64,000 nucleotides of DNA from Lutibacter sp. HS1-25 (GTDB lineage Bacteria; Bacteroidota; Bacteroidia; Flavobacteriales; Flavobacteriaceae). Location: positions 62,001 through 126,000 of the forward strand of contig NZ_RHLN01000001.1 in assembly GCF_004121075.1 (NCBI RefSeq), in the 5' to 3' direction. The notes beneath the pieces were generated by a model that was not told the origin of the DNA, did no database searches, and saw nothing but the letters and a program-made list of their open reading frames with translations. Position 1 is the first letter of the stretch. The number at the start of each line of letters is the position of its first letter. Positions 1-25,559 of this stretch are shown here, in pieces. A program made the position numbers and the translations under genes.

Positions 1-144
1 GATTTTAAAGTAATCAAAATATTATGTAATTATTAAGAATTGTTGCTTGAAAAAAGATTGTTTTATAATATCCAAATTTTTGGGTCTATTATAATACAAT
101 TGTAATATGTTGATAAACAGTAATATAAGTGTATTTTTAAAAAA

Positions 145-188
145 CTTAATGTAAACTTAACGTTAACAAAACGTAAAATGAATGTAAA
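145..188 (+). promoter_or_regulatory. Pho-box-like array of four 11-bp direct repeats
   Basis: Four consecutive 11-mers begin at 145, 156, 167 and 178: CTTAATGTAAA, CTTAACGTTAA, CAAAACGTAAA, ATGAATGTAAA. The GTAAA/GTTAA core recurs at 151, 162, 173 and 184, exactly one helical turn apart. Direct repeats with 11-bp phasing are the hallmark of OmpR/PhoB-family sites, and the cyanobacterial Pho box is a CTTAACCT-like 8-mer with 3-bp spacers. A TAATTTTA element close to the Bacteroidota -7 box (TAnnTTTG) follows at 194-201, about 40 bp before the ATG at 244. The repeats are seen; the identity of the regulator is inferred. Confidence 0.5.
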
Positions 189-243
189 TTAGGTAATTTT
201 AAACTATCAAAATAAAAGGAATGTTCATTTAAAAATCTTAGAT

Positions 244-591
244 ATGAAAAAATTAATTTTAGCAGTTGTTTTAATGTTTAGTATAACTGCATTTGCACAA
301 GAACAAAAAGTAGCGTACAAAAAATTGGATAACAATTTAACGCAGGTAACGTATTATTTTGCTGATAATAGTGATATAATACAAAGAGAAGGTTTTTTTA
401 ATGCTGATGGAAAACTGCAAGGAACCTGGATTAGTTATGATGTTGATGGTAATAAAATAGCCATTGCAAATTATAACAATGGTGTAAAAGAAGGTGTTTG
501 GATGTATTTTAAAGAAGATAAAGTAAATGTAGTTACATACAATAATAACAAAATTACCAATGTTGAAGAAAAAGCATTGGTTGTAAATTAA
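244..591 (+). CDS. Secreted YwqK/MORN-repeat-like small protein
   Basis: A 115-residue protein with a signal peptide (about residues 1-18, ending AFA-Q). The mature part carries MORN/YwqK-like repeats: GKLQGTWISYD near residues 56-66 followed by NYNNGVKEGVWMYF near 76-89, the alternating G-x-W/Y pattern of this family. Such short proteins are common in Flavobacteriaceae, are often labelled YwqK-family antitoxin without evidence, and have no known biochemical role. It is a single-gene unit with a phased repeat array in front and a strong bidirectional terminator behind. The same kind of array stands before the TonB receptor and the small gene at 4863-5246, so co-regulation with them is the best clue to function. 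Confidence 0.8.
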   Translation: MKKLILAVVLMFSITAFAQEQKVAYKKLDNNLTQVTYYFADNSDIIQREGFFNADGKLQGTWISYDVDGNKIAIANYNNGVKEGVWMYFKEDKVNVVTYNNNKITNVEEKALVVN

Positions 592-609
592 ACCCTAAAT
601 TCTTTAATA

Positions 610-646
610 AAAAAAGGGATGCTAACAACGTTAGCATCCCTTTTTT
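610..646. terminator. Bidirectional intrinsic terminator
   Basis: A perfect 11-bp stem (GGGATGCTAAC at 616-626 and its complement at 630-640, 3-nt loop) is flanked by an A-tract on the left and six T on the right. It lies between two convergent genes and should stop transcription from both sides. Confidence 0.9.
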
Positions 647-662
647 GGTTTTGTAAATAATG

Positions 663-1862
663 TTAGTTAACTGTCCAACCAGCTCCCCAAGTTGCATAAT
701 CAGTTCCTGTTCCATTACCAATACCTGAAACCAAATCAGCTTCAGTAAAAGTAGCAGCAGTTTGATTTACTACTTTTGTAGTTACATTGTTAAAAGTAAT
801 GTCGTTTAAGTGTAATGTTTTGTCAACAGCCCAAGTACCAGTTGGATTGTCTCCACCATCACCTTTTAATTCAGTTCCTTTTCCAAAATCATTTAATACA
901 ATATTTGTAAAAATTCCTTTTGTACCTGCTCTTAATCTAATAGCTTCACTAGTAGCAATATCTGCTGCAAAACCATAAACTGTTGCATTTGTAATAGTTG
1001 GTGCCGACCAAAATTTAGGACTAGCATTGTTACCTATATCAGTATTGTAACCATCAGCTTCAAAAGCTTTATCGTGATCTACACCTTGTTTAATGTATGC
1101 GTTTGTTACGTTACCACTAAAACCTTCTGTCCAGTCAATTGAATCATCTTGTGCATTGATTACAGAAACGTAATTTACATTTACAGTTCCACCAAAAAAC
1201 TCTAAACCATCATCTAAACCTTCAAACATTTGAATGTATTCAACAGTTGTTCCATTTCCTACTCCATAAAAAGAGAAACCGTTGTTTTCAGATTGTCCAT
1301 CAGCTTTTCCTCCTGAATATTGTACACGAACATAACGAATAGTTCCTGAGTTATCTGCAGCATTGGTACCACCGTAAGGTAAACCTCCAATTTCTGAAGT
1401 TGAAGTTCCTGAAGAAACCGAGTTGATTGGTGCTTTACCTAATAAAATCAATCCACCCCAGTCTCCAGCTTTTGGAGCAGTTGAGTTTGATGTCATAACA
1501 ATAGGTGCGCTTGCAGTTCCGTTAGCTTCAATTTTTGCACCTTGAGCAATGGCAATATAAATATCAGAACCTGAAGCCAATGCATTAATAGTTGTACCTG
1601 CTTCAATAGACAATGTTGTACCACTTGCCATTACCAATGCGCCATTTAAAATGTAATTGTTTTTGGCTAATAAATCTAAATTTGAAGTGTAAGTACCAGA
1701 AATATAAATAGTTTCTGCACCTGGATCTGTTGATCCGCCACCGTTAACGATGTTTGTTACAGAATTATCTGTATTGTTAATAATAATATCAGCAGTATCA
1801 TCTTCACCGCAAGATATAAATAGCGTTGAAGCTATTGCTAAAGTTAAAAATGTATTCTTCAT
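663..1862 (-). CDS. Putative surface lipoprotein with beta-helix-like repeats, partner of the TonB receptor
   Basis: 399 residues from the ATG at 1862; the frame extends 11 codons further upstream, but this ATG gives a clean lipoprotein signal ending FISC (Cys18). The residues after Cys are GEDD, an acidic patch like the lipoprotein export signal that sends Bacteroidota lipoproteins to the cell surface (known for the phylum; its use here is inferred). The body is rich in G, N, T and V and resembles right-handed parallel beta-helix proteins, with segments such as GDWGGLILLGKAP near 145-157. It starts 38 bp after the stop of the TonB receptor and is very likely cotranscribed. A receptor-lipoprotein pair is the usual layout of a SusCD-like importer, but this is not a SusD homologue. 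The ligand is unknown. Confidence 0.8.
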   Translation of the reverse strand: MKNTFLTLAIASTLFISCGEDDTADIIINNTDNSVTNIVNGGGSTDPGAETIYISGTYTSNLDLLAKNNYILNGALVMASGTTLSIEAGTTINALASGSDIYIAIAQGAKIEANGTASAPIVMTSNSTAPKAGDWGGLILLGKAPINSVSSGTSTSEIGGLPYGGTNAADNSGTIRYVRVQYSGGKADGQSENNGFSFYGVGNGTTVEYIQMFEGLDDGLEFFGGTVNVNYVSVINAQDDSIDWTEGFSGNVTNAYIKQGVDHDKAFEADGYNTDIGNNASPKFWSAPTITNATVYGFAADIATSEAIRLRAGTKGIFTNIVLNDFGKGTELKGDGGDNPTGTWAVDKTLHLNDITFNNVTTKVVNQTAATFTEADLVSGIGNGTGTDYATWGAGWTVN

Positions 1863-1900
1863 TGTTTTTAAATTATTTAAATTAATTGAGTTCATAATTG

Positions 1901-4729
1901 TTAAAAGTTATATTTTAATTGTAATCCTAAGTTCATTCCTTGTTTGTAGTTTTCTAAAACTACTTCTTGGTTATTTGTAATTTCTCTTATTATTTTGACA
2001 TTTGGATTTAGTAAATTTTTTGCTCTAAAGTTTAGTTGAAAATGTTCCCCTATTTGATTTTCCCAAACAAAGTCTAATGTTGAAAATCCTTTTTCAATTT
2101 TATTACCTAACTGACCAGAACCTAAAGCAAAAATCCTATCTGAAAAGTAACTGTACACTAAGTTTAAAGTTGGAGAAACCTTTGTTCCAAAATTTGGTTT
2201 ATAGTTTAAATCGGCATTAATTAATAATGGTGAAGCTCCTTGTAATTGTTCTGTTTTACGATTGAATGACGTACTGTAAACTCCTTGAACTGTTGAAAAT
2301 AAATCTTGTTCAGTATACATATAAGAAACATTAAAACCTGTTGAAAGTAAGCTGTTACCTAAATTATTGTCTAGTATATTTTTTCTAACCTCTAATTCTA
2401 AACCAGCAATTTGGGCTTTGTCACCAGTTCTAAAATAACGTTGAGTACCTGTTGCATCATTGGCAACTACTAAGTTTACAGGATTTTTAATTTGTTTTGC
2501 AAAAGCACCTAATGAAATAATTTCATCAGAGCTTATAAACCATTCGTATTTTAAATCAAGGTTTAAAACATCAGAATATGAAACATCTTTTACGTTTACA
2601 TAGTTTACACCTGTTTGGTGACCTAATATATCTGGATTTCCACCAACTCTTTGGGTAACACCTTCATATACATAAGGAGCCATTTCTTTAAATTCAGGAA
2701 AAGAAACTGTATTGCTATATGAAAAACGCAAGTTCATTTTATCGTTTAAAGCATATCTAACATTTACACTTGGTAAATACAGGTTTTCGGTAACTTCAAT
2801 AGATCCTGGATTTACAATTAGGTTAATTACATCGTATGAAATACTTTGGTTAAACCATTCGGTTCTAACAGCTGGTACAATTAACCATTTTCCAAAATTT
2901 AATTCGGCTGAAGCATAACCAGAAAATACTGTTAAATCTGCATTGTAAGTGTTTTCTAGTAACCCTGGATTGTTTGTTGGGCCTATAAAAAATACGCCTT
3001 CACCTTCTGGATATATTGGTCTAAATACATCTGTTTCGTACAAACCATCAGCCCAGTTTTTAGCATTAAAAATGGCATTAAAGTCTTTTGGATTGATATT
3101 GAAATTTGGATCTATATTTTTGTATCCGTAACGAATGTTTTCAAAATTACGTGTTTTGTAACGGTCTGTAGCGCCTAAGTTTAGCGTAAATTCGTCTGAA
3201 ACAATTAGTTTAGCATTAAACCTTCCGTTAAATTCTTCATCTATAATTCGTTCAAAATAACGTTGGTTGTCAAATGAATTGTTTGAATAAAACGATGGCG
3301 ATGTATTTGGGTCGTTGTCTAAATAATTATAATATTGCTCTAAAGACAAACGTTTTCTGTCTGGTTCGTGAGAAAATACATTGTTATAACCCAATCCCCA
3401 GTCTATAATTAACTGATCGTTATTTACTTTATGTGTTCCCATCAATTGATTTACAAAAACCATATTTTGGTTAAATTGCGAATTCATTTGATAAAAACCT
3501 GCATCAGAATTGATCATTGCATCTCGGTTTGTACCTAAACCTTTTACGCCATAATACCCAACTTCATCTTTACCACTATTTATAAATAACGAATTGTATG
3601 ACAATTTATGTTGGTCGTTTATTTTGTAAATTAAGTTTCCCATTACTGTTGAAATTGTTGAATAACTGTATTTATCAACATTTGGAAATGATTTTTTTAG
3701 CACATTGGTATAATCTGCTTCTGAACCTTGTAAAAAAGAATATTGGTTTTGAAATGAACCTGTAAGAAAAAAGCTAAACTTTCCTTTTTCACCAACATCA
3801 AATGATTTTCCGCCTGAAGCGCTAATACCTGTATTTATTGGAGCATATCCTTTAATAGGATCTGGACCGTGACTTATTACAATAGCAAACGGATTGTGGT
3901 CATATCGGCCATAAAAACCAAAGAAACCTGTACCGCCATTTTTTACAAAATTTTGATCAACAGCATTTGTGTTTATGCCAGATTCTAGAGCGACTTCAAT
4001 AAAACCGTTTCCGGTATATTCTTTTGAATTTACATTTACATTTCCTGCAGCAAAATCTGCATAAAAATTAGCTGAATAAGCTTTACTTACATCAATATTT
4101 TGAATAATGTCTGAAGTAAATAAATTTAAATCTATGTTCTTTTTATTGATATCGTTTGAAGGCATAGTTAAACCATTTAACGATGTACTAATGTAGCGAT
4201 CGCCTAAACCTCTAACATATACGTTACTTGTTCCTTCTTTAGAAATTCCTGAAATTTTGGTAACAGCTGCTGCTGCGTTGCTAATTCCTTTACGAGTTAA
4301 CTCTTCACTACCAATACTTTGCTTAATTTCAACCGCCTTTTTTTGTTCAGTTAATAAAGCGCTAACAGACTCTTTATTGGTAGAACCTGTTATTTGTATT
4401 TCACTAAGTGAAACACCTTCGCTTGCACTTAAAGTTTTATTTAATACAATATTTTGTCCTGCTTTTACAACAACATTTTTTTCTTCAATAGTTTTGTAAC
4501 CAATAAAACTAAAAACAACGGTGTAAGTTCCTGGGTCAACTTGTAAAGTGTATTTTCCTTCAAATTCTGTTGTAGTTCCAATGCTTGTTCCTTTAATGTA
4601 TACATCGGCATAAGGTAAAGGCGAATTGTCAAATTCCTTATCTAAAATAGTTCCCGAAATAGTTCCTTTAGATTGGCTAAAAGCAACTGTATTTATCAGT
4701 AGTAAAAGTGCTATATAAATTTTTTTCAT
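1901..4729 (-). CDS. TonB-dependent receptor with N-terminal carboxypeptidase-like domain
   Basis: 942 residues from the ATG at about 4729; a TTG at 4753 would add eight residues but the signal peptide MKKIYIALLLLINTVAFSQ favours the ATG. Order of domains: signal peptide (1-19), carboxypeptidase-D-regulatory-like domain (about 20-105, with GTISGTILD and SFIGYKTIE), plug domain (about 115-235, with YVRGLGDRYISTSLNG), then a 22-strand-type beta barrel ending in the aromatic signature KYNF. It should import a scarce nutrient across the outer membrane using TonB energy. It heads an operon with the beta-helix lipoprotein. Six phased GTTAA-type repeats lie 40-99 bp upstream. Substrate is not readable from sequence; repeat type suggests phosphate limitation. 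Confidence 0.92.
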   Translation of the reverse strand: MKKIYIALLLLINTVAFSQSKGTISGTILDKEFDNSPLPYADVYIKGTSIGTTTEFEGKYTLQVDPGTYTVVFSFIGYKTIEEKNVVVKAGQNIVLNKTLSASEGVSLSEIQITGSTNKESVSALLTEQKKAVEIKQSIGSEELTRKGISNAAAAVTKISGISKEGTSNVYVRGLGDRYISTSLNGLTMPSNDINKKNIDLNLFTSDIIQNIDVSKAYSANFYADFAAGNVNVNSKEYTGNGFIEVALESGINTNAVDQNFVKNGGTGFFGFYGRYDHNPFAIVISHGPDPIKGYAPINTGISASGGKSFDVGEKGKFSFFLTGSFQNQYSFLQGSEADYTNVLKKSFPNVDKYSYSTISTVMGNLIYKINDQHKLSYNSLFINSGKDEVGYYGVKGLGTNRDAMINSDAGFYQMNSQFNQNMVFVNQLMGTHKVNNDQLIIDWGLGYNNVFSHEPDRKRLSLEQYYNYLDNDPNTSPSFYSNNSFDNQRYFERIIDEEFNGRFNAKLIVSDEFTLNLGATDRYKTRNFENIRYGYKNIDPNFNINPKDFNAIFNAKNWADGLYETDVFRPIYPEGEGVFFIGPTNNPGLLENTYNADLTVFSGYASAELNFGKWLIVPAVRTEWFNQSISYDVINLIVNPGSIEVTENLYLPSVNVRYALNDKMNLRFSYSNTVSFPEFKEMAPYVYEGVTQRVGGNPDILGHQTGVNYVNVKDVSYSDVLNLDLKYEWFISSDEIISLGAFAKQIKNPVNLVVANDATGTQRYFRTGDKAQIAGLELEVRKNILDNNLGNSLLSTGFNVSYMYTEQDLFSTVQGVYSTSFNRKTEQLQGASPLLINADLNYKPNFGTKVSPTLNLVYSYFSDRIFALGSGQLGNKIEKGFSTLDFVWENQIGEHFQLNFRAKNLLNPNVKIIREITNNQEVVLENYKQGMNLGLQLKYNF

Positions 4730-4750
4730 TTGTTCGTTAATTTCTTGCAG

Positions 4751-4758
4751 CAAAGAAA
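4751..4758 (-). promoter_or_regulatory. Possible -7 element of the TonB receptor promoter
   Basis: Read on the minus strand this is TTTCTTTG, one base off the Bacteroidota consensus TAnnTTTG. It sits 10 bp downstream of the repeat array and about 22 bp before the receptor start codon, the place expected for an activator-dependent promoter. Confidence 0.35.
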
Positions 4759-4768
4759 TGTTAGTAAC

Positions 4769-4828
4769 GTAAATGAAAAGTTAAGCAGTGGTTATAAAAA
4801 GTTAATGATAGTGTTAATTAAAGGTTAA
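4769..4828 (-). promoter_or_regulatory. Pho-box-like array of six phased repeats upstream of the TonB receptor
   Basis: On the plus strand GTAAA or GTTAA/GTTAT begins at 4769, 4780, 4791, 4801, 4813 and 4824, so spacings are 11, 11, 10, 12 and 11 bp. In the direction of transcription the units read TTAAC (or TATAAC, TTTAC). Consecutive repeats on one face of the helix are typical of PhoB/OmpR-type response regulators, and TTAAC resembles the cyanobacterial Pho box. No activator gene lies nearby. This is the longest of three such arrays in the first 5.3 kb. Confidence 0.6.
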
Positions 4829-4862
4829 CAACTAAAACCTTTAATAAAATGACTTTGTTAAC

Positions 4863-5246
4863 TTATTTTAATTGAGAAATTAACACAGGCATTTCAGGCG
4901 TTAAAGCATTCAAAAATTGTGTGTTAGTTGCAATTGAATTTGGTTGTACTTCAATGTTTTTAACTTCAATAGTTTCATAACCAATAAAACTGTAAACCAA
5001 TGTATAAATACCTGGTTTTAGGTTAAATGAATACGAACCGTCTATGTTTGAAGTAGTTGAGATATTGGTGTCTTTTATTTCAATAGTAACAAATGCCAAA
5101 GGTTCATTATTGGCTTCGGTATCTATTATTGTTCCAGATATTGTTCCGTTTTTGGTTTGTTCAGCAATTAAAGAACCTACTTTAAATGTTTGACTGTAAG
5201 TTGTTAAACCAACTAATAACACTAAAATTACCAAAATTCGTTTCAT
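4863..5246 (-). CDS. Small secreted protein: free-standing carboxypeptidase-regulatory-like domain
   Basis: 127 residues from the ATG at 5246 (an upstream in-frame extension of 11 codons lacks a signal peptide and is dropped). Signal peptide about 1-18 (ends TYSQ). Residues about 30-110 form one carboxypeptidase-regulatory-like beta-sandwich: GTISGTIIDTEANNEPLAFV, then YSFNLKPGIYTLVYSFIGYE. This is closely similar to residues 20-105 of the neighbouring TonB receptor (shared GTISGTI, the P-G-Y-T-V/L-V core, and SFIGY-TIE-KN), but no plug or barrel follows. It therefore looks like a duplicated receptor N-terminus that became a separate gene. It has its own phased repeat array upstream. Function unknown; it could bind in the periplasm to the receptor's partner or act as a decoy. 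Confidence 0.78.
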   Translation of the reverse strand: MKRILVILVLLVGLTTYSQTFKVGSLIAEQTKNGTISGTIIDTEANNEPLAFVTIEIKDTNISTTSNIDGSYSFNLKPGIYTLVYSFIGYETIEVKNIEVQPNSIATNTQFLNALTPEMPVLISQLK

Positions 5247-5289
5247 AATATACCTTGTATTTTTAATATTACAAATCACGAGATTGTAT

Positions 5290-5338
5290 GTTAACTGAAG
5301 GTTAATTATAAGTAATTAAAATGTGTTTTTAAGGTTAA
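5290..5338 (-). promoter_or_regulatory. Pho-box-like array upstream of the small secreted gene
   Basis: Plus-strand GTTAA occurs at 5290, 5301 and 5334, with GTAAT at 5312 and a weaker GTGTT at 5323, all on an exact 11-bp register. In the direction of the gene at 4863-5246 the units read TTAAC. The array lies between that gene and divergent dgt; the orientation matches the former. A TTTG-ending element at 5272-5279 could be the -7 box. Confidence 0.5.
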
Positions 5339-5442
5339 TTTTTATAAATCTAATTAAAAGTATTTTGAAGTGTAAAAATAAAATTGCTAAAAATATTTTT
5401 GCTGAAAAAGAATTATCTTGCGACAAATTATTTAAAATGAAA

Positions 5443-6774
5443 ATGAATTGGAGCCAACTGTTATCTCTTAAAAGATTTGGAGATACTGAACCAAGATTAA
5501 GAAAAAATCAAAACGAAACTAGAATTGCTTTTGAAGTAGATTATGACCGAATTATTTTTTCGGATTCGTTTAGAAGTTTGCAAGATAAAACACAGGTGGT
5601 ACCACTTTCTAAAACCGATTTTGTGCACACCCGTTTAACGCATAGTTTAGAGGTAAGTGTGGTGGCGCGCTCGTTGGGTAGAATTGTAGGTGAAAAAATA
5701 CTGCAAAAATACCCCGATTTGGTTGAACAAGGTTATGGAATTAACGATTTTGGTGCTATTGTGGCTTCTGCAGCCTTGGCGCATGATATTGGAAATCCGC
5801 CATTTGGACATAGTGGAGAAAAAGCCATTGGAGAATATTTTAAAAATGGAAACGGACAACAATATAAAAATCAAATTACTGATAAAGAGTGGCAGGATTT
5901 AATTGATTTTGAAGGCAATGCAAACGGATTTAGAATTGTAAATGAAAGTAAGCAGGGTATGGAAGGCGGTATCCGTTTGTCGTACGCAACTTTGGGTGCT
6001 TTTATAAAATATCCAAAAGAATCGTTGCCAAAAAAACCAACAACTCATATTGCCGACAAAAAATATGGTGTTTTTCAGTCCGATTTGCCTTTTTTTAATG
6101 AAGTAGCTCAAGAATTGGGATTGATTTCAACAGGAAGCAAAGGAAATACTGCGTTTAAAAGGCATCCATTAGCGTATTTGGTTGAAGCTGCCGATGATAT
6201 TTGTTATACCATTATCGATTTTGAAGATGGTATTAATCTAGGTTTGATTGATGAAGAATTTGCGCTGGAATATTTGATAAAACTAGTAAAAAACAATATC
6301 GATTCTAAAAAATACCATCAGTTGGCATTTAAAAAAGACAGGTTAAGTTATTTAAGGGCTTTGGCTATTGGAACACTTATTAATGAAGCTGCAGCTATGT
6401 TTTTGGCTCATGAAGATGAAATTTTAAGTGGTAATTATTCTTTTTCATTATTAGATAAATGTAATTATGAAGCGCAAATAAATGACATCATTAAAATTAG
6501 TGTCGAAAAAATATACCAAAGTCGTGAAGTTGTTGAAAAAGAGCTGGTTGGTTACTCAATTATAGCCGCTTTACTTGATGTGTTTGTTTCAGCAACCAAC
6601 CGAAAATTTGAAAACAATTTAACAAACTACGATAAGTTAATTTTAAATTTATTGCCTGAAAGTCTTCAAGAACCAAAAGAAACTTTGTACTTAAGAATTT
6701 TAACAATGTGTGGTTATGTGGCAAGTTTAACCGATGGTTTTGCATTGCAATTGTATAAAAAGATAAAGGGATAA
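5443..6774 (+). CDS. dgt: Deoxyguanosinetriphosphate triphosphohydrolase
   Basis: 443 residues from the ATG at 5443 (an ATG two codons earlier is equally possible; longer upstream reading is implausible AT-rich leader). An HD-superfamily dNTPase that splits dGTP into deoxyguanosine and triphosphate, controlling nucleotide pools. The metal and substrate motifs are intact: HTRLTHSLEV near 62-71 and AHDIGNPPFGHSGE near 113-126, containing the HD pair (about H114, D115). Length fits the type 1 dGTPase of Bacteroidota. It is monocistronic or leads into the T9SS protein 23 bp downstream, with which no functional link is evident. Confidence 0.9.
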   Translation: MNWSQLLSLKRFGDTEPRLRKNQNETRIAFEVDYDRIIFSDSFRSLQDKTQVVPLSKTDFVHTRLTHSLEVSVVARSLGRIVGEKILQKYPDLVEQGYGINDFGAIVASAALAHDIGNPPFGHSGEKAIGEYFKNGNGQQYKNQITDKEWQDLIDFEGNANGFRIVNESKQGMEGGIRLSYATLGAFIKYPKESLPKKPTTHIADKKYGVFQSDLPFFNEVAQELGLISTGSKGNTAFKRHPLAYLVEAADDICYTIIDFEDGINLGLIDEEFALEYLIKLVKNNIDSKKYHQLAFKKDRLSYLRALAIGTLINEAAAMFLAHEDEILSGNYSFSLLDKCNYEAQINDIIKISVEKIYQSREVVEKELVGYSIIAALLDVFVSATNRKFENNLTNYDKLILNLLPESLQEPKETLYLRILTMCGYVASLTDGFALQLYKKIKG

Positions 6775-6797: not shown

Positions 6798-9700
6798 ATG
6801 AAAAATAAATTTCCCCAATTTTTATTAGTGTTGTTTATAGCAGTTTTAACAACTACTTTCTTTTATTTTCAAAACGAAAAAAACACAAATAATTTAACTG
6901 AAATAATCAAACTAAGGCAGCAGTATCAAAATTATTTGGATAATAGTCCGTTTAAAAAAACTTTACAACTTTCAAAAGCTGAAAGAAAAGCATTGGGCAT
7001 ACCCCCTAACAAATACTACGAACGTGAGTGGGAATTAACTATGAATCCTGCAACAGGTTTTCCAGAGCCAAACAAAGTTTTAGACATTCAAAATAAACGA
7101 AATAGTATTAAAAATCGTGCACCTGGTGATGGAGACGTAACCAATAATTGGGTTGATAGAGGTCCAAACAATGTTGGTGGCAGAACTCGTGTTATTTTAT
7201 TTGATCCCAATGATGCCGATAAAAACCGAGTATTTGCAGCTGGTGTAAGTGGCGGATTGTGGGTAAATGAAGACATTACTAAAAACACTTCGTGGACTTT
7301 GGTTGACGGTGTTCCTGGAAATATGAATATTTCATGCATTACTGTAGATCCTAACAATTCTCAAATTTGGTATTTAGGAACTGGAGAACAATATACTTTT
7401 GGCGCTGCAGTTGGAAACGGTGTTTATAAAACAACCAATGGTGGTGCTAATTGGGTAAATGTACCAGTTCAATTGGCAGGTGGGGTTACTTCTGGTAGTA
7501 ATTTTGCAGGTTTGTATTTTATCAACGACATTATTGCTTGGGACAATGCAGGTTCAACAGTGTTATTTTTAGGTGTTGGCTCTCATATTTATAACGACGC
7601 TTCAAGTCCGTCAAATTGGTTAGGTTATCAAAATGCAGGTTTATACACTTCAACCAATAATGGTGAAAACTGGATTAGATTAGAGAACGAAGATTTAAAA
7701 TTAGACGCAAATAGTAGTTATTTTACCATTCCAAACGATTTTGAAATTGGAGCAGATAATACATTGTGGATGGGAAGTATTGAAACCTACGGAACAGGTA
7801 AAGGTAGAGGCAAGGTTTTTAAATCTTCTAATGGAGTTGATTGGAGTTTGGTAACAACTTTGGCAAGTTCAAATAGGGTAGAGTTGGCAGTTTCTTCAAC
7901 AAATAAAGATAAATTATATGCTTTAACTCAAGGTACAACATCTTCAGATCCGCCACATATTTATGCAACTACCGATGCTTTTGCAACTGTAATTGAGTTG
8001 GCAAAACCCGATGCTGCCGATACAGATATAAATTCATCTGATTTTACACGTGGACAAGCGCATTACAATTTAATGATTGAAGTTGATCCAACAAACGATC
8101 AAATTTTTTATGTTGGTGGTATCGATTTGTTTAGAACAACTCAAGGTATAGATATAACTTCAGCAACTGACTGGGAACAAATTTCAAAATGGTCTAACAA
8201 TAACAATATGGCTACACTTACCTGTTCTAAAGTACATGCAGATCAGCACGTTTTTACTTTTAGACCAAACAAAAACAATGAAGCTGTAATTGGTTGTGAT
8301 GGGGGTGTTTATTATGCTTCAGATTTAGCAAATGCCAAAAATAACGATGTTTTTTCAGTAAGAAATAAAAATTACAATGTTACACAGTTTTACGCCGGTA
8401 GTTATGGTCAAGATCCGCTAAACGAACTAATATTAGCGGGTGCACAAGACAACGGTACTCCGTTTATAAAAGCAGCCATACCTGGGGCAAATTCAAGTAT
8501 TGATATAACTGGTGGTGATGGTGCTTATAGTGTTATTGATAAAGATGGTGACTATATGATTGTCTCTTATATTTACAATGAACATTACTATTATAAATTG
8601 CCTTATAATGGCACTTTTGAATATGAAATAGACAGTGGTAGTCCGCAACAAGGAGATTTTATCAATCAAGCAGGTTTAGATCATAATCTGAACATTATGT
8701 ATTCTAATGGTGGGAGCGGAAAAATTAACAGGTATATTTTAGGTATAGATGCGGTAGTTAAAAAACAATTGTCAGATCCATTATTTACTGGTTCTGCAAC
8801 AGCATTTAAGGTTTCGCCTTACACAACAACAAGTACTACTTTATTGGTTGGAACAGACAGTAGCAAATTGTTTAAAATAACAAATGCAAATAATAGTGGT
8901 GTTGGTAGCATTGGATGGACGCAATTTACGGTTCCTTTTGTTGGAAGTGTTTCTGACATTGAATTTGGTACAACTGAAAACGAAATTTATGTAACCATGC
9001 ATAACTACGGAGTTACAAGTGTTTGGTATACTGCTGATGGTGGTGTAACTTGGGAAAATAAAGAAGGCAATTTACCCGATATGCCAGTAAAATGTATTTT
9101 GCCAAATCCGTTGGTTGCCAATGAGGTTATTATTGGAACAGAATTGGGTGTTTGGTCTACCAAAAATTTTAACGATGCTTCGCCAACTTGGGTAAGTTCT
9201 TATAACGGAATGCGAGATGTTAAAGTAGTGGATTTAGATTTAAGAACTGCCGATAACAGTATTTTAGCAACCACACATGGTCGCGGTGTGTTTACAGGTA
9301 AGTTTTTAGCTGCTGAGTTTAGTATTTCGACCGAAAATGAGGTTGTTACAACTTGCGCTTCAACAGCTATATTTAACTTAGATTTTAATACATATCCAAG
9401 TTATAATACAAAAACTACTTTTACTGCTACTAATTTCCCTGCGGGTGTTACCGTTAATTTTAGCCCAACATCATTAAATGCTGCAGGTTCTTTTACTATG
9501 GAAGTAAGTAATATTAGTTTGCCAATTGGAGAATATCCTATTACTATTGAAGGTAGCGGATTGGGGACTTATACCGCAAACATTATTTTAAAAGTAGTAG
9601 ATCCTTCAACAATAAATACAGTAATGCCAACAGCGCCATTAAACGAAGCTACAGCTGTTGAAATTGATAATGTTGATTTTACTTGGGATGCTATTGCTAT

Positions 9701-10946
9701 GGCAACTTCATATAATTTTGAAATTTCAACAAATGCCGGATTTACTTCAACAGTTGAAACGGCTAATGTTAAAAATAACAATTACACATTAAAATCTGTA
9801 TTAAATCCAGGGACAGTTTATTATTGGAGAGTGAATGCTGTAAATAGTTGTGTAACAGGTATTTTTTCTGAAGTTCAAAGTTTTCAAACGGCTATTAATT
9901 GTAATGTTTTTAGTAACAATACTGCAATTGCCATTCCCGATGGTTTGGGTGCAAATGTAGATGGTTTACCAGCAATTTCGGTAATTAATGTTCCTTCAAA
10001 TATTTTAATAAGTGATTTAAATATTACCTTAAATATTACACATACTTATCCGGGAGATTTAAAAATTATGTTAAAATCACCTTCAAATACTGAAATTATA
10101 TTGTATCAATACAATTGTGGTGATGAAGACAATATTCTTGTAAATTTTGATGATGCTGGTTCAACAACTTATAATTGTGGAAGTTTTATTCAAACCACAG
10201 TTAAACCTGTACAAGCATTGTCTGGGTTTGCTGGAGAAAATGCACAAGGAAACTGGACTTTAAAAATAGTTGACAATTACAATGGTGATGTTGGAAATTT
10301 AAATTATTGGTCTATTGAAGTTTGTGAAAATAAAACAGTTACAGCATCGAATCTTGTAAATAATCCAATTACCGTTGGAACAAATAGTAGTTATATTATT
10401 ACAAATAACGATTTAAAAGCCGAAAGTATTGGTTCAACAACAAGCCAACAAGTTTTTATGCTTACACAATTACCAGCAGTTGGAATTTTAAAATTAAATG
10501 GTAATGCTCTTTTAGTTGGTGAAACTTTTTCTCAAGCCGATATTGATGCTAATTTATTATCATATGTAAATAGCAGTTTTACTTCAACTGCCGATAGTTT
10601 TAAGGTTGATATTACCAATGCAACTGGCGGATTTTTACCAAATCAACAAGTTGATATTACCATAGATTCTGCATTGAACTTAAGCGATGATTTTTTAACT
10701 AAAGCAGGTATTTTAATTTATCCAACAGTGTCTAACGGTTATTTTTCAATAGCTTCAACAAAAGCAATAGGTAAAACAACTGTTGAATTATTTGCGGTAA
10801 GTGGTCAAAAGGTATTTTCAGAAAAATTGGATTTTTCATTTGGCAATGTAAGTCATATTGGCGCTAGCCAATTAGCGCCAGGAGTTTATGTTTTAAAATT
10901 AACTTCGGAAGAAATTGTGGGCACTAAAAAAATTGTAATAAAGTAA
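6798..10946 (+). CDS. Large T9SS-secreted protein with VPS10/BNR-like propellers, P-domain and type A sorting domain
   Basis: 1382 residues. An N-terminal hydrophobic signal (about 8-25) leads into a long region (about 110-860) of repeated S/T-x-D-G-G/N-x-x-W motifs (TNGGANWVN, TNNGENWIRL, TADGGVTWEN), typical of sortilin/VPS10-like and BNR beta-propellers. A fibronectin-like module follows (about 970-1050), then a proprotein-convertase P-domain (about 1055-1180: ITHTYPGDLKIMLKSPS, WTLKIVDNYNGD), and a C-terminal Por-secretion type A domain (about 1310-1382: IYPTVSNGYFSI, ending GTKKIVIK). The C-terminal domain directs export through the type IX system and anchoring or release at the surface. 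No protease triad is evident, so a binding or adhesive role, or a glycosidase-like one, remains open. Confidence 0.88.
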   Translation: MKNKFPQFLLVLFIAVLTTTFFYFQNEKNTNNLTEIIKLRQQYQNYLDNSPFKKTLQLSKAERKALGIPPNKYYEREWELTMNPATGFPEPNKVLDIQNKRNSIKNRAPGDGDVTNNWVDRGPNNVGGRTRVILFDPNDADKNRVFAAGVSGGLWVNEDITKNTSWTLVDGVPGNMNISCITVDPNNSQIWYLGTGEQYTFGAAVGNGVYKTTNGGANWVNVPVQLAGGVTSGSNFAGLYFINDIIAWDNAGSTVLFLGVGSHIYNDASSPSNWLGYQNAGLYTSTNNGENWIRLENEDLKLDANSSYFTIPNDFEIGADNTLWMGSIETYGTGKGRGKVFKSSNGVDWSLVTTLASSNRVELAVSSTNKDKLYALTQGTTSSDPPHIYATTDAFATVIELAKPDAADTDINSSDFTRGQAHYNLMIEVDPTNDQIFYVGGIDLFRTTQGIDITSATDWEQISKWSNNNNMATLTCSKVHADQHVFTFRPNKNNEAVIGCDGGVYYASDLANAKNNDVFSVRNKNYNVTQFYAGSYGQDPLNELILAGAQDNGTPFIKAAIPGANSSIDITGGDGAYSVIDKDGDYMIVSYIYNEHYYYKLPYNGTFEYEIDSGSPQQGDFINQAGLDHNLNIMYSNGGSGKINRYILGIDAVVKKQLSDPLFTGSATAFKVSPYTTTSTTLLVGTDSSKLFKITNANNSGVGSIGWTQFTVPFVGSVSDIEFGTTENEIYVTMHNYGVTSVWYTADGGVTWENKEGNLPDMPVKCILPNPLVANEVIIGTELGVWSTKNFNDASPTWVSSYNGMRDVKVVDLDLRTADNSILATTHGRGVFTGKFLAAEFSISTENEVVTTCASTAIFNLDFNTYPSYNTKTTFTATNFPAGVTVNFSPTSLNAAGSFTMEVSNISLPIGEYPITIEGSGLGTYTANIILKVVDPSTINTVMPTAPLNEATAVEIDNVDFTWDAIAMATSYNFEISTNAGFTSTVETANVKNNNYTLKSVLNPGTVYYWRVNAVNSCVTGIFSEVQSFQTAINCNVFSNNTAIAIPDGLGANVDGLPAISVINVPSNILISDLNITLNITHTYPGDLKIMLKSPSNTEIILYQYNCGDEDNILVNFDDAGSTTYNCGSFIQTTVKPVQALSGFAGENAQGNWTLKIVDNYNGDVGNLNYWSIEVCENKTVTASNLVNNPITVGTNSSYIITNNDLKAESIGSTTSQQVFMLTQLPAVGILKLNGNALLVGETFSQADIDANLLSYVNSSFTSTADSFKVDITNATGGFLPNQQVDITIDSALNLSDDFLTKAGILIYPTVSNGYFSIASTKAIGKTTVELFAVSGQKVFSEKLDFSFGNVSHIGASQLAPGVYVLKLTSEEIVGTKKIVIK

Positions 10947-21229: not shown

Positions 21230-23860
21230 ATGGCAAACTATCAAATTCTTTCTACAAAATTAAACCGACCAACATGTTTTCACCAGTACTTTAAAAGAGA
21301 ACGATTAGATCATCTTTTAGAACAAGGCAGTCATAAAGTAGCTACAATTATTTGTGCAGGTGCAGGTTATGGTAAAAGTACACTTGTGAGCCAATGGGTT
21401 AAAAATAAGGAAGCAATTTGGCTGAGTTGTGATGCTGATATGAATGAATTGCCAGTTTTTTTAAGTTATGTTGTTCACGGATTTGCAAAAGAAAAGGTAA
21501 ATCCATTTGCCGAAACTTCAAAATTACTAGCTTCTCAAAATACCATTTCAGACGATTTGTTAATCAATACATTTATTTCTGAAACCAATAACACAACCAA
21601 AAAAGTATTTGTTGTTTTTGACGATTTTCATTTATTAAAAAATCCTTATATAATTAAGTTAGTAGAGACGTATTTAACTTTTCCGCCTCAAAATATTCAT
21701 GTAATTATTCTTTCTAGGCACGATTTAATTTTTTCATTTCCAAGGTATCGATTAAACAATGCCATATTAGATATACGGATGAAAGATTTAAATTTGACAT
21801 TAGACGAACTTAAAATGTATGCTAAAACCTGTTTTGATTTAGCATTAAGCAAAGAGCAGCTAAATTTAATTTTACGTAAAACTGAAGGTTGGTTTTTAGG
21901 CGTAAATCAAATATTATATGCTTATAAAGAATTAAATGCACCATTGGCAAATAAAAATGATGTTTTAAGTCAGCACCAGTTTAGTGATTATTTTAGAGAT
22001 GAGGTAATTACATTGCAATCTGAAGATAGCCAAAAGGTGTTGTTTATATGTTCGTTATTTAGTCAGTTTAATAAAGAACTTGTTGATTGTATTTTAAATA
22101 CCATTGCGCCAGAAATATCTCAAACTACTATTAACAATACCTTAGTTAATAAAAATAATTTTATTATTGGGTTAGATTCTGTAAATCAATGGTATAGATT
22201 TCATCATCAGTTTCATGAGGCATTAAATCTTAATTTTAAAAATCATCCGTTTAACATTTTTCGTTCAGAATGTCTACAAATAGGAGGTGAGTGGTTGATA
22301 AAACACCATTTATACGAGGATGGAATTATAAAAACCATAGAATCGGGTAAAATAAAACTAGCTGTAAAACAGTTACATAAGTTAAGATACAAACTTTTAA
22401 ATACAGACCAATACGGGCGATTGGCAAATATATTATCGTTATTTCCGCTAGATATTCAGGATAGTGATACAGAGCTACTGCTTATTAAAGCATTTGTTTT
22501 AGAAAATCAGGGTAAAAACGATGTTTTAGAGATTTTATTAACCAAATTAAATCCTGTGGTTGCTAAAAATTCATTAACCAAGCAGCAATTAGGTGAGTAC
22601 AAAGTTTTAGACGGACTTTTAAATAACTTTTCAGGAAACTATAAAAAAGCGCTAACACAATTTAATGAAGCTTTAGAACTGCTAAAACCAAATGCCGAAT
22701 CTATTATAACTTTTGCTTGTGGTCAAAAGGCCTTGGTGCTAAATTCGTTAAATAAATACAACCAATCTTTAAGTTTTTTAACAACACGTTTAAATGCTCT
22801 TAATAAAAATCAACATCAAAGTATTGTAAGGATTCTTACTTCAAAAATGTTGATTTATGGTTTTAGAAGTGATTTAAGAAATATGCAAGGAATTATTCCT
22901 GAGATTATTAAAAAAAGTGAAAAACATGGTTTTCATGAAACACATGGAATGGCATTGTATTATCAAATAGAACTAAATTACAGAACAGGAAAATACAAGC
23001 AATGTGATGTTTTATTTGAAGAAGGTCGTAAATTACGTTATTTAATGCGTCCGGGATGGTATGGCTATTTAATGTGTGCCCAAGTTTATTGTGATTTGTA
23101 TTCAAACAAAGAAAAACTTCAGGAGAGTTTAAATGAATTTGAAGCTTTTTCGAGAGAAGAAAATGCAGAAAATATTTTTCAACTTCAAAATATACTTTTA
23201 ATAGAAATTGCATTAAAAAACAAAAACTATAAGGAAGTACTTCAACTTCATGAGCAAACCAATTACCATATAAACCCACCTATTTTATTTCATTTTTTAC
23301 CTCAGGTAACCCAGTTAAAAGTACTATTGTACGTAAATGAGACTCATAATTTTGATGAATTTTATACAGCTTCAAAAAAATTATGGGATTATGTAAATAG
23401 TCAATCGCAAGTTAACTTATTGTTGAAGTTAAATATTATAACTTCAGTTGCAGCTTTTATGCAGCATAAAAAAGAAGAAGCATTTAACTATATGAATGCT
23501 GCATTAACTATTTCTGAAGATACAGGTGATTTAACGGTATATGTTGAGTTTTCTCAACACGTTTACGAAATATTGTCGACTATAACAGTAGATAAATCGT
23601 TGGCGCATCATTTAAAAGATGTATTGTCTTTTTTTGAAATGCTAAACGATAAAAAAGTAAATGGAATTGTTTTTAAAGAACGAGATATAAAAATATTAGA
23701 ATTGGTTGCAAAAGGACATACAAATGGTCAAATAGCAGATGAAATGTTTTTATCGCCAGAATCTGTGAAAAAATATTTGTATCATATTTTTCAGGATTTA
23801 GATGTTAAAAGTAGAATGAATGCTGTTTTAGAAGCAAGGCGTCTTGGTTTAATACATTAA
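21230..23860 (+). CDS. MalT-type LuxR-family transcriptional regulator (STAND ATPase)
   Basis: 876 residues. N-terminal NTPase with Walker A GAGYGKST (44-51) and a Walker B-like VFVVFDDFHLLKNP (about 125-138). A long helical sensor of TPR-like repeats occupies about 340-790. A C-terminal LuxR helix-turn-helix lies at about 810-870 (FKERDIKILELVAKGHTNGQ, then SPESVKKYLYHIF and DVKSRMNAVLEARRLGLI). MalT relatives bind ATP and an inducer, oligomerise and activate transcription. It sits upstream of a small gene and a serine hydrolase in the same direction, its likely targets. Its long 217-bp upstream region holds no other gene. The inducer is unknown. Confidence 0.9.
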   Translation: MANYQILSTKLNRPTCFHQYFKRERLDHLLEQGSHKVATIICAGAGYGKSTLVSQWVKNKEAIWLSCDADMNELPVFLSYVVHGFAKEKVNPFAETSKLLASQNTISDDLLINTFISETNNTTKKVFVVFDDFHLLKNPYIIKLVETYLTFPPQNIHVIILSRHDLIFSFPRYRLNNAILDIRMKDLNLTLDELKMYAKTCFDLALSKEQLNLILRKTEGWFLGVNQILYAYKELNAPLANKNDVLSQHQFSDYFRDEVITLQSEDSQKVLFICSLFSQFNKELVDCILNTIAPEISQTTINNTLVNKNNFIIGLDSVNQWYRFHHQFHEALNLNFKNHPFNIFRSECLQIGGEWLIKHHLYEDGIIKTIESGKIKLAVKQLHKLRYKLLNTDQYGRLANILSLFPLDIQDSDTELLLIKAFVLENQGKNDVLEILLTKLNPVVAKNSLTKQQLGEYKVLDGLLNNFSGNYKKALTQFNEALELLKPNAESIITFACGQKALVLNSLNKYNQSLSFLTTRLNALNKNQHQSIVRILTSKMLIYGFRSDLRNMQGIIPEIIKKSEKHGFHETHGMALYYQIELNYRTGKYKQCDVLFEEGRKLRYLMRPGWYGYLMCAQVYCDLYSNKEKLQESLNEFEAFSREENAENIFQLQNILLIEIALKNKNYKEVLQLHEQTNYHINPPILFHFLPQVTQLKVLLYVNETHNFDEFYTASKKLWDYVNSQSQVNLLLKLNIITSVAAFMQHKKEEAFNYMNAALTISEDTGDLTVYVEFSQHVYEILSTITVDKSLAHHLKDVLSFFEMLNDKKVNGIVFKERDIKILELVAKGHTNGQIADEMFLSPESVKKYLYHIFQDLDVKSRMNAVLEARRLGLIH

Positions 23861-23939
23861 TTACTTATCTTTTTTAATAGAACAATCTTTACAATAACAC
23901 TTTAAAAATCATTTTTTTAAAAGTGTCAACTTTAGTGGA

Positions 23940-23970
23940 TTGTCTATTTTTTCATGCTGCTGTAATTTAG
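23940..23970 (+). promoter_or_regulatory. Possible promoter of the small-protein/serine-hydrolase unit
   Basis: TTG (23940-23942), 20-bp spacer, TAATTTAG (23963-23970, one base off TAnnTTTG), ending just before the ATG at 23975. It would give an almost leaderless mRNA. Confidence 0.35.
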
Positions 23971-23974
23971 CAAT

Positions 23975-24226
23975 ATGAAAAATACAACACAACATAGCAA
24001 TAGTTTTTCTTCACCAGCATCTTATGCATTAATGGTTTTTCGTGAATTACCGTTAGCGCAATCTGAATGGTTAGTTACTGAAAATTTACAAATTTTTGGT
24101 AAGGAAGAAAATGGTACTATTTATTCATTAAAAGAAACATTTAAAGATCAAACGCATCTTTTAGGTTTTATAGATAAATTAAATGAAGATCATTTTACCA
24201 TAATTTCAATAAACAAAATTCAATAA
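23975..24226 (+). CDS. Small protein of unknown function
   Basis: 83 residues, no signal peptide or membrane span. The sequence includes ASYALMVFRELPLAQSEWLVTEN and ends in a short DHFTIISINKIQ; no family is recognised. It lies 115 bp after the LuxR-type regulator and 62 bp before the serine hydrolase, in the same orientation. The coding look (clean ATG, plausible promoter, normal composition) supports it as a real gene. A role as an inhibitor, chaperone or sensor for the hydrolase would be guesswork. Confidence 0.6.
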   Translation: MKNTTQHSNSFSSPASYALMVFRELPLAQSEWLVTENLQIFGKEENGTIYSLKETFKDQTHLLGFIDKLNEDHFTIISINKIQ

Positions 24227-24287
24227 GTTTTTTTAAAAAAAAGCAAATAATATTAATTCATTATATAAACATTTAAATTTCAACATC

Positions 24288-25559
24288 ATGAAAAATCAAG
24301 AAAGAATCAACGATATGTTAAACATGGAAACGGGCATGTCAAAATGGAAAAAACCACAACCTTTAGACTTTGTATATGGCGCAACTAGTCGTTATAGCTT
24401 TGTAAACTGGCAAACAGGAAATGATGATTCAATTTACTACAACTTAAATCTTCCAGCATTTTTTAAAACACAGGTAGTGATGCCTCCAGCAGAAACAAGC
24501 ATTTTGGAAAGAGACTATCATCCAGAATTATTGGACTTGAGCTTTGATAATTTAGATGGAACTAAAAACCCAACTTTAGAGGAATATATCAAAGGCCCAA
24601 AACAGGTGCAAGCTATGATAATGGCACACAAAGGGAAAATAGTGTTTGAAACCTCTCCTGGAATGAGAGAAGGCGCACCACACGTATGGATGTCGGCTTC
24701 TAAAACAACGGTAAGTTTAACAGCTACTATGCTTTGGGAAGAAGGAAAATTAGATATTGAAAAGCCAATCACACACTATGTGCCAGATCTTAAAGGAACC
24801 GCTTGGGATGCAGTTTCTGTAAAAAATGCGATGAACATGTCATCAGGTTTAGATGTGGAAGAAACATTTGAAAGTTTGACCAATCCAGAATCATTTATTG
24901 CAGGTTTTATGACACGATCATTTGAAAGTAGTCATAGCAGTTGGCGTGATTGGGCTAAATCAGCGCAACCAATACCAGGAGAAAAGCCAGGTGATAGATT
25001 CCGTTATTCTACTTGTATCACGTTGATTTTAGTGGTAATGGTAGAGAATATTACCCAAATGCCTTGGCACGAATACTGGGGACAACGCGTATGGTCTAAA
25101 ATAGGTGCAAGATCTCCGTTTAGCGTTGCGCTTGCTCCAGATGGTACACCTGGGGCTGCAGGACTTAACATCACTACTATTGAAGATATGCTTCGTTATG
25201 CTTTATTGTATACACCTAGCTGGAATAAAGTTGCTAAAGAACAAGTAATTTCAGACAAGATGTTGAAATTCATCCAAAATTTTGGAAATCCAGATGCCTA
25301 TGTAGGTTGTGGTGAAGAAGCTATGGGTAAAAGATGGTTTGGTGAAACACCTTATACCAATACAGCACAATGGGATCATTCATTTAAAGATGGCGCTATG
25401 TTTAAGCACGGTAACATGGGGCAAGGTATTTATGTAGATCCTGCTCGTGATTTTTGTGGTTGTTATTTTGGTTTAGCTACCAACGATGAATCTATTTCAG
25501 GCGTGGATCATTCACCAGGTTATTTAAGAGCAGCAGCTAAAATGTTAAATGGAGAATAA
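24288..25559 (+). CDS. Class C beta-lactamase-fold serine hydrolase
   Basis: 423 residues. Serine beta-lactamase/esterase fold with the SxxK motif SASK (S136, K139), a Tyr motif RYST (about Y240) in place of YxN, and a C-terminal HGNMGQG block near the KTG position. Closest in pattern to 6-aminohexanoate-dimer hydrolase and EstB-type esterases; penicillin-binding or true lactamase activity is not implied. No signal peptide is seen, so it probably acts in the cytoplasm. Several stretches (for example around 24661-24720) are visibly richer in GC than the neighbours, a hint of foreign origin. It is the last gene of the regulator cassette and ends in a good terminator. Confidence 0.85.
   Translation: MKNQERINDMLNMETGMSKWKKPQPLDFVYGATSRYSFVNWQTGNDDSIYYNLNLPAFFKTQVVMPPAETSILERDYHPELLDLSFDNLDGTKNPTLEEYIKGPKQVQAMIMAHKGKIVFETSPGMREGAPHVWMSASKTTVSLTATMLWEEGKLDIEKPITHYVPDLKGTAWDAVSVKNAMNMSSGLDVEETFESLTNPESFIAGFMTRSFESSHSSWRDWAKSAQPIPGEKPGDRFRYSTCITLILVVMVENITQMPWHEYWGQRVWSKIGARSPFSVALAPDGTPGAAGLNITTIEDMLRYALLYTPSWNKVAKEQVISDKMLKFIQNFGNPDAYVGCGEEAMGKRWFGETPYTNTAQWDHSFKDGAMFKHGNMGQGIYVDPARDFCGCYFGLATNDESISGVDHSPGYLRAAAKMLNGE

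Follow-up and report, generated by a model that had tools for sequence, protein, structure and literature searches.

A TonB-dependent receptor and a putative surface lipoprotein at the end of a phosphate island in Lutibacter: a candidate phosphate-starvation uptake unit

Introduction

Which nutrient is imported by a TonB-dependent receptor (TBDT) whose neighboring lipoprotein bears no likeness to SusD, and do the small secreted proteins encoded beside the two belong to the same system? The question is raised by a locus of Lutibacter sp. HS1-25, a member of the Flavobacteriaceae with a genome of 4.18 Mb in 164 contigs. The stretch of DNA analyzed, referred to throughout as the window, is 64,000 nucleotides long (G000:C1:62001-126000), and the locus lies at its left-hand end. 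A sequence-only reading of the window had proposed a nutrient-limitation uptake system, possibly for phosphate or organic phosphorus, composed of a TBDT, a beta-helix-like lipoprotein, a detached copy of the receptor's N-terminal domain (here called NTE), and a MORN-like protein. On the basis of the comparisons presented here, the locus is considered, with a probability of about 0.68, to be a phosphate-starvation outer-membrane uptake unit.

Results and discussion

Architecture of the locus

Listed below are the elements of the locus, with coordinates in the window and the evidence for each in parentheses.

141..167, forward strand: AAAACTTAATGTAAACTTAACGTTAAC, a conserved element ahead of the MORN-like gene (comparison of 29 Lutibacter upstream regions)
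244-591, forward strand: MORN-like small secreted protein, 115 amino acids, convergent to the TBDT-lipoprotein pair (open reading frame, Pfam below cut-off, fold model)
610..646, no strand: hairpin with 17-nucleotide arms between the convergent MORN-like and lipoprotein genes (inverted repeat)
663-1862, reverse strand: putative surface lipoprotein, 399 amino acids, beta-helix-like, with CGEDD at the lipobox cysteine (open reading frame, profile searches, model)
1901-4729, reverse strand: TBDT, 942 amino acids, with NTE domain, plug, and barrel (open reading frame, Pfam)
4751..4754, reverse strand: TBDT promoter, TTTG within the predicted -10 element (promoter layout scan)
4769..4784, reverse strand: TTAAC-N6-TTTAC, the Pho box predicted for the TBDT, preceded by another TAAC half-site (layout scan, sequence)
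4863-5246, reverse strand: NTE, a small secreted free-standing CarboxypepD_reg-like protein, 127 amino acids (Pfam)
5272..5275, reverse strand: NTE promoter, TTTG within the predicted -10 element (promoter layout scan)
5290..5305, reverse strand: predicted Pho box of the NTE gene, TTAAC-N6-TTAAC (layout scan)
5437..6774, forward strand: dgt-like gene, the flank of the cassette and outside the system (named by eye from the sequence)

The four genes are real, and the TBDT (CarbopepD_reg_2, Plug, and barrel domains) and NTE (CarbopepD_reg_2) score above the Pfam cut-offs. With the NCBIfam models, the TBDT falls below the cut-offs of TIGR01782 (145.9 bits; cut-off 310) and of the SusC model TIGR04056 (47.5 bits; cut-off 368.25). 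The TBDT stop codon is positioned 38 bases ahead of the lipoprotein ATG, and the two genes are predicted to constitute a single unit that borders a phosphate island. The hairpin beyond the lipoprotein gene is a probable bidirectional terminator.

Leftward from the window, and all on the leftward strand, lie genes for a porin O/P (PF07396), an 854-residue TBDT (OMP_b-brl_3), and a 341-residue barrel (OMP_b-brl), after which the island continues with pstS, pstC, pstA, pstB, phoU, and a Pit-type transporter (PF01384). Note that pstC, pstA, and pstB were identified by eye, and that "the two barrels" or "porins" hereafter denote the 341-residue barrel and the porin O/P. The NTE-TBDT-lipoprotein locus is the right-hand end of this island. 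The Pit-type transporter (L061:7757-9883) contains 708 residues, and the better of two matched PHO4 stretches covers residues 1-297.

The lipoprotein family was found in 189 of the 199 Flavobacteriaceae genomes searched and, within Lutibacter, in 35 of 38; among named genomes the window protein has its nearest matches in Lutibacter, for example Lutibacter oricola (DSM 24956, L108, type A as defined below). Neighborhoods were taken from 32 of the 34 other Lutibacter genomes with the family (G016 and G024, where it lies on short pieces, were omitted), and these, together with the window, constitute 33 cassettes. A TBDT stands beside the lipoprotein in all 33, NTE is present in 31, and the MORN-like gene and dgt are each present in 29; three of the four cassettes without dgt stop at a contig edge. 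A second lipoprotein copy in G013 brings the number of Lutibacter lipoprotein loci to 34, and the TBDT adjoins the lipoprotein in 33 of these, window included. Among 79 loci from named genomes the pair is adjacent on one strand in 72 by script, the TBDT first in 55 and the lipoprotein first in 17. The count rises to 74 with L155 and L169, where a lipoprotein masked by the overlap filter comes right after the TBDT. Three of the other non-adjacent loci (L112, L159, and L168) are cut by contig ends. The gene-neighborhood comparison that had been suggested as a check has thus found the pair conserved together. In 77 counted named loci, dgt is present in 35, and phosphate-transport genes fall inside the fetched stretch in 38.

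A tandem of two TBDT-lipoprotein pairs is present in Aquimarina amphilecti (L171), where the lipoprotein of the second pair has 639 residues; it may possibly represent an exchange intermediate. In Pseudoalteromonas donghaensis (L190:821-12271), a 4.1-kb gene with the lipoprotein-like domain lies between an ExbB/ExbD/TonB set and a TBDT, an arrangement that is perhaps a dedicated energizing unit.

Exchange of the pair

The 33 Lutibacter pairs belong to four discrete types, with none intermediate, in one slot between NTE and the MORN-like gene. Type A (n = 6 with the window) has a lipoprotein of about 400 residues, whereas types B1 (n = 7) and B2 (n = 8) have double lipoproteins of about 740 and 651 residues, respectively. 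In type C (n = 12), a lipoprotein of about 410-430 residues is placed before the TBDT, such that the gene order is reversed. The TBDTs are 64-95% identical within types A, B1, and B2, 50-97% within type C, and 23-44% between types; an original three types were refined to four because the B1 and B2 receptors are only 39-42% identical.

The borders of the slot can be seen in a comparison of G005 (type B1) with G017 (type C). Their DNA is 87% identical through NTE, as far as a point 20 bases (G005) or 40 bases (G017) short of the pair's first gene. Inside the pair, matching DNA is confined to two short pieces of the NTE domain (65-67%), and an identity of 81% resumes about 35 bases before the MORN-like gene. 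We read this pattern as recombination in the flanks, which would bring in a matched pair while the region upstream of it is retained. The same slot in named genomes holds either an A-like or a C order within Dokdonia (L142 versus L165 and L180) and within Winogradskyella (L143 versus L178).

The types require at least 10 changes (the minimum being 3) both on a tree of dgt, MORN, and NTE (31 rows) and on a tree of dgt (29 rows). The approximately unbiased test rejected A, B, and C each as one clade (p = 0.003, 6e-95, and 0.0002); it was applied to the three-type grouping, with some rows fragmentary and many forks weak, and the starred branches of the tree alone force only 2-4 changes per type. 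Over 28 of the 33 cassettes (the four without dgt and G036 omitted), the TBDT and lipoprotein distances correlate at 0.97, and still at 0.97 with dgt held constant. The corresponding values are 0.43 for NTE and TBDT and 0.38 for TBDT and dgt. NTE and the MORN-like gene are equally close to the pair, yet overall they do not follow its type. The pair is exchanged as a unit while its flanks do not follow, and this ties the receptor and the lipoprotein together.

Phages or bacteriocins that use the receptor could drive the exchange, in which case the four types would take up the same substrate. The discreteness of the types, with none intermediate among 33 and no fewer than 10 changes required on the best tree of the flanks, would suit such an explanation, as would the kept upstream region and flanks, which fit diversifying selection on the surface-exposed parts. 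The types differ, however, in lipoprotein domain number and gene order, suggesting a functional difference, and the ragAB alleles of Porphyromonas gingivalis have been discussed in terms of substrate uptake (PMC11817032). An exchange driven in this way is possible, if rather unlikely.

In the type C loci (L085-L096) an apparent hairpin, seen by eye, lies between the lipoprotein and TBDT genes and perhaps lowers expression of the receptor relative to the lipoprotein.

Promoter layout

The layout scored was TTAAC-N6-TTAAC-N14-TTTG, and a strict match was allowed at most two mismatches in the ten half-site bases. The half-site pair TTAACN6TTAAC occurs 46 times in the genome, and five of these sites lie within 10.8 kb of the island, preceding pstS, both barrels, the TBDT, and NTE. 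The binomial probability of such clustering is 1.5e-7, for a stretch picked after the matches were known. The pair is not over-represented in the genome as a whole (46 matches versus 80 for the reversed control pattern), and therefore only the local clustering and the spacing carry weight. The longer pattern TAACN6TTAACN{13,19}TTTG has 10 matches versus 15 for its reversed control. A spacer of 14 is observed in four of the 10, namely those before pstS, both barrels, and NTE, and the remaining six have spacers of 13, 13, 16, 16, 18, and 19. The TBDT is absent from the spacer-14 group because its nearest half-site is TTTAC.

Across the Lutibacter loci the strict layout precedes PstS in 9/10, the barrels in 10/12, NTE in 26/30, and the TBDT in 18/21 (type A 6/6, B1 5/7, and B2 7/8), as compared to 3/173 for a background of unmatched open reading frames. 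It precedes PitA in 3/12 and the lipoprotein as first gene (type C) in 1/11. It was found in 0/29 cases before the MORN-like gene, 0/29 before dgt, 0/21 before the lipoprotein as second gene, and 0/12 before the TBDT as second gene. Seven of the 10 failing type C loci carry three mismatches, one beyond the strict limit, and NTE has the strict layout in 9/10 type C loci. The type C pairs may thus depend for their transcription on the NTE promoter, or on a box with slight alterations.

A looser position weight matrix (PWM) was trained on 15 of 22 pstS and porin upstream regions, the other seven having no site, with a threshold that passes 5% of 213 controls. In Lutibacter it passes NTE in 30/30, the type A TBDT in 6/6, the type B TBDT in 13/15, the MORN-like gene in 28/29, PitA in 10/12, the type C lipoprotein in 8/11, the type B lipoprotein in 6/15, and dgt in 3/29. 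The set for other genera comprised 46 of the 79 named loci, with four Lutibacter loci and most of the distant ones left out; it is not purely of other genera, as the uncultured Lutibacter L117 was kept. Here the matrix passes NTE in 11/14, the TBDT as first gene in 22/40, the lipoprotein as first gene in 4/5 and as second gene in 2/41, porin in 12/20, PitA in 16/28, PstS in 0/2, dgt in 5/31, and the MORN-like gene in 2/31.

The claim that all four genes share one promoter architecture consequently survives for the TBDT and NTE and fails for the MORN-like gene and for the lipoprotein as second gene. In the same manner, of the two small secreted proteins placed under one regulator, NTE fits and the MORN-like protein does not. 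A single regulon that includes the MORN-like gene would draw on the TTAA-rich element conserved before that gene in Lutibacter, which the PWM recognizes in nearly every locus. The half-sites of this element are related to those of the Pho boxes, but it lies outside the strict layout in every case and is seldom recognized in other genera, and one regulon for all four genes is unlikely. Rather, the MORN-like gene appears to have a well-kept element of its own in Lutibacter.

TBDTs commonly serve for iron chelates, B12, or glycans, and the unit could serve another nutrient, such as iron or another metal, or a cofactor, and stand beside phosphate genes by chance. Yet the promoter layout is common to pstS and the barrels and rare among background genes, and about half of the counted named loci have phosphate-transport genes inside the fetched stretch. 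Moreover, phosphate depletion induced the Flavobacterium johnsoniae relatives described below, whereas limitation for iron or nitrogen did not (PMC8115612). An unrelated nutrient is accordingly very improbable. The suggested link to nutrient limitation, and to phosphate in particular, is upheld by the adjoining pst, phoU, pit, and porin O/P genes and by the pstS/porin layout upstream of NTE and the TBDT. The layout also provides a concrete, searchable Pho-box model for the Flavobacteriaceae; no description of a Pho box for Bacteroidetes was seen among the literature matches listed.

The lipoprotein

The window lipoprotein matched no Pfam or NCBIfam family at E<=1, and three other members of its family had no Pfam match above cut-off. 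A SusD partner is ruled out by these searches, in keeping with the earlier claim that the protein is not SusD-like. A relationship by sequence to a solved structure was likewise rejected, the two PDB matches (E = 0.22 and 0.69) being unconvincing. The predicted model has a mean pLDDT of 72 and a pTM of 0.77, with values above 80 in most blocks of residues 51-270, and is characterized by successive short repeated strands. The 50 PDB matches listed by Foldseek are mostly beta-helix proteins, namely pectate lyases, polygalacturonases, alginate-type enzymes, and phage tailspikes. The beta-helix-like fold is thus a prediction supported by the model and by weak Foldseek matches, none of them at E<=0.001.

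Asp 217, Asp 218, Glu 221, Asp 239, Asp 240, Asp 243, Glu 268, and Asp 270 are invariant in 45 near members (window included) and 25 distant ones. Loci whose protein has at least 560 residues, namely L171 and nine of the 34 distant loci, 10 of the 79 in all, were left out of the alignment, and some Flavobacteriaceae of type C order are counted among the 25 distant members. The 22-residue steps between these acidic residues suggest that they are stacked on one face of the helix, and we infer that this acidic face is likely a metal or ligand site.

The candidate surface-export signal is CGEDD. In the window protein three acidic residues lie within positions +2 to +6, occupying +3 to +5 after the lipid-bearing cysteine, and acidic residues so placed are a feature of described surface-export signals (PMC5080379). 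At least two are found at +2 to +6 in 28 of 33 Lutibacter lipoproteins (four, all type C, have one, and one is unreadable) and in 44 of 45 named relatives (one unreadable), versus 7 of 35 control open reading frames with a lipobox. The polar or basic residue that precedes the acids in the minimal Capnocytophaga canimorsus signal (PMC5080379) is missing in type A, which has glycine at +2 and glutamate at +3.

Rather than capturing a ligand as a partner of the TBDT, the lipoprotein might be an enzyme, or it might activate a secreted phosphatase, the role proposed for ElpS, with the TBDT importing the released product. ElpS is an outer-membrane lipoprotein made by Caulobacter crescentus in phosphate starvation, and its over-expression raised phosphatase activity (PMC2996285). 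The lyases, polygalacturonases, and tailspikes among the listed PDB matches and the eight invariant acidic residues are in line with such a role. Against it, no Foldseek match reaches E<=0.001, ElpS refolded from E. coli or immunoprecipitated was without phosphatase activity (PMC2996285), and strict pairing with one receptor type is more easily explained by physical contact. An enzymatic or activating function is thus possible, if rather unlikely.

The small secreted proteins

NTE had been described as a detached copy of the receptor domain. Its origin as a recent duplicate of the N-terminus of the window TBDT is not favored, because it is kept in 31 of 33 cassettes with an N-terminal stretch of its own and overall does not track the TBDT type. 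NTE is kept alongside every type of pair, and at a guess it assists the plug or the contact with TonB.

The MORN-like protein of the window falls below the Pfam cut-off for MORN_2 (10.9 of 29.6 bits), and eight of 22 family members match MORN_2 at E<=1 (best 0.0095). Its model contains eight strands with a pLDDT of 86, and the first PDB match is SET7/9 (E = 0.0013, not below 0.001), others being junctophilin, radial spoke proteins, and Morn1, all of which we take to be MORN proteins.

Proposed function

When phosphate is scarce, a PhoB-like activator would bind the pairs of TTAAC half-sites that stand 14 bases ahead of the -10 TTTG. NTE and the TBDT-lipoprotein operon would then be expressed along with pst and the porins, and the lipoprotein would be lipidated and, as its signal suggests, exported to the cell surface. 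There it would capture a phosphorus-containing substrate of a size that the porins cannot pass, probably via the invariant acidic patch and perhaps through bound calcium, and would pass it to its own TBDT for TonB-driven import. Receptor and lipoprotein would be mutually matched and therefore swapped between strains only as a pair.

Several observations weigh against this scheme. Of the 32 Lutibacter cassettes that could be read, 13 lack the strict box ahead of the pair's first gene, namely 3 of the 21 that begin with the TBDT and 10 of the 11 that begin with the lipoprotein. No regulator scores above the cut-off of the PhoB model (38 matches, best 203.8 bits, cut-off 296.2), a cut-off passed in only 2 of 14 control genomes, and none of the listed matches falls in the phosphate island; a candidate PhoB is encoded at G000:C9:62367-63038. 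The Foldseek matches of the lipoprotein are weak (best E = 0.0038, none at E<=0.001). The second lipoprotein copy in G013 (C20) is without an adjoining TBDT, as are two Myxococcota lipoproteins (L156 and L164). Within type C the NTE and TBDT distances correlate at 0.95, within type A those of TBDT and lipoprotein correlate at only 0.51 (partial 0.45, p = 0.08), and linkage alone can lead to joint inheritance of neighbors. In Caulobacter, cc0171, the TBDT gene next to elpS, was reported to be constitutive, and deletion of elpS left phosphatase activity unchanged (PMC2996285).

The myxococcal family members, for their part, may have a different role in those organisms.

A bolder and quite tentative extension is to regard the phosphate-starvation receptor in Flavobacteriaceae as a plug-in slot. 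It would have a kept Pho-controlled upstream region, a fixed downstream border, and at least four modules swapped whole by flank recombination, each for a different phosphorus-bearing polymer bound via metal ions by the invariant acid ladder, with NTE serving all. If so, the members of the slot would divide phosphorus sources, or phage exposure, among close relatives.

A phosphate-starvation uptake unit of this type would have several implications. The lipoprotein family seems central to how common Flavobacteriaceae cope with phosphate shortage. The paired exchange constitutes natural evidence on how lipoproteins and receptors are matched, and the four types are ready-made for testing ligand specificity.

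Neighboring genes

Beyond dgt, the window encodes at 6798-10946 a large secreted protein with a P-domain, a cadherin-like domain, and a type IX secretion tail, and a relative of it comes after dgt in several Lutibacter loci. At 21230-25559, a LuxR-type regulator (GerE, with a MalT-like TPR region below cut-off) stands beside a beta-lactamase-fold serine hydrolase (PF00144). The two are possibly a separate small unit, and their G+C content of 28-34% shows no clear deviation.

Comparison with known systems

The proposal of a receptor-lipoprotein pair of a type other than SusCD is supported, although pairs of this kind are already in print (PMC2996285, PMC8115612). In F. johnsoniae, phosphate depletion induced TBDTs with the neighboring hypothetical lipoproteins FI and FII (PUSIII and PUSIV), which were reported to be related to a Caulobacter lipoprotein and were modeled as polygalacturonase-like (PMC8115612). 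The likeness, by description only, is that of a low-phosphate-induced TBDT beside a non-SusD lipoprotein, FII being in a phosphate gene cluster (PMC8115612). The settings differ: FII lies with phoBR and FI with a FecR/sigma pair, whereas the Lutibacter pair lies between dgt and the MORN-like gene, beside pst. In addition, the TBDT adjacent to FII carries pf14905 (PMC8115612), which is lacking in the window TBDT and present in the 854-residue TBDT of the island.

ElpS adjoins the TBDT CC0171, and their co-occurrence was already taken by the authors as a sign of interaction (PMC2996285). At the window locus, too, a TBDT stands next to a lipoprotein. Homologues of the window lipoprotein in Sphingomonas and Indioceanicola show the order lipoprotein-TBDT-gsp, as published for elpS. 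Those loci adjoin type II secretion genes, however, and none were recognized by eye near the window, where no search for them was made. Neither CC0170 nor F. johnsoniae is among the 79 loci returned by the scan of named genomes.

Like the PusCD and SusCD systems, the locus encodes a TBDT and a putative surface lipoprotein in one predicted operon, but the lipoprotein lacks a SusD domain and the TBDT reaches 47.5 of 368.25 bits with TIGR04056. The ragAB locus of P. gingivalis, with four alleles, is similar in that one locus holds one of several discrete receptor-lipoprotein alleles. There the RagA types are 58-97% and the RagB types 47-100% identical to the reference (PMC11817032), whereas the Lutibacter TBDT types are 23-44% identical across the genus, with a change in domain number and, in one type, a reversed gene order. 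Among the literature matches listed for cassette exchange, no title concerned this phosphate locus.

The pair most likely belongs to a kind of phosphate-starvation system that is already known, that of FI/FII and CC0171/ElpS, as judged by descriptive analogy. To that kind the present analysis adds the exchange of pairs in one slot, the precise layout of the box, and the spread across the family.

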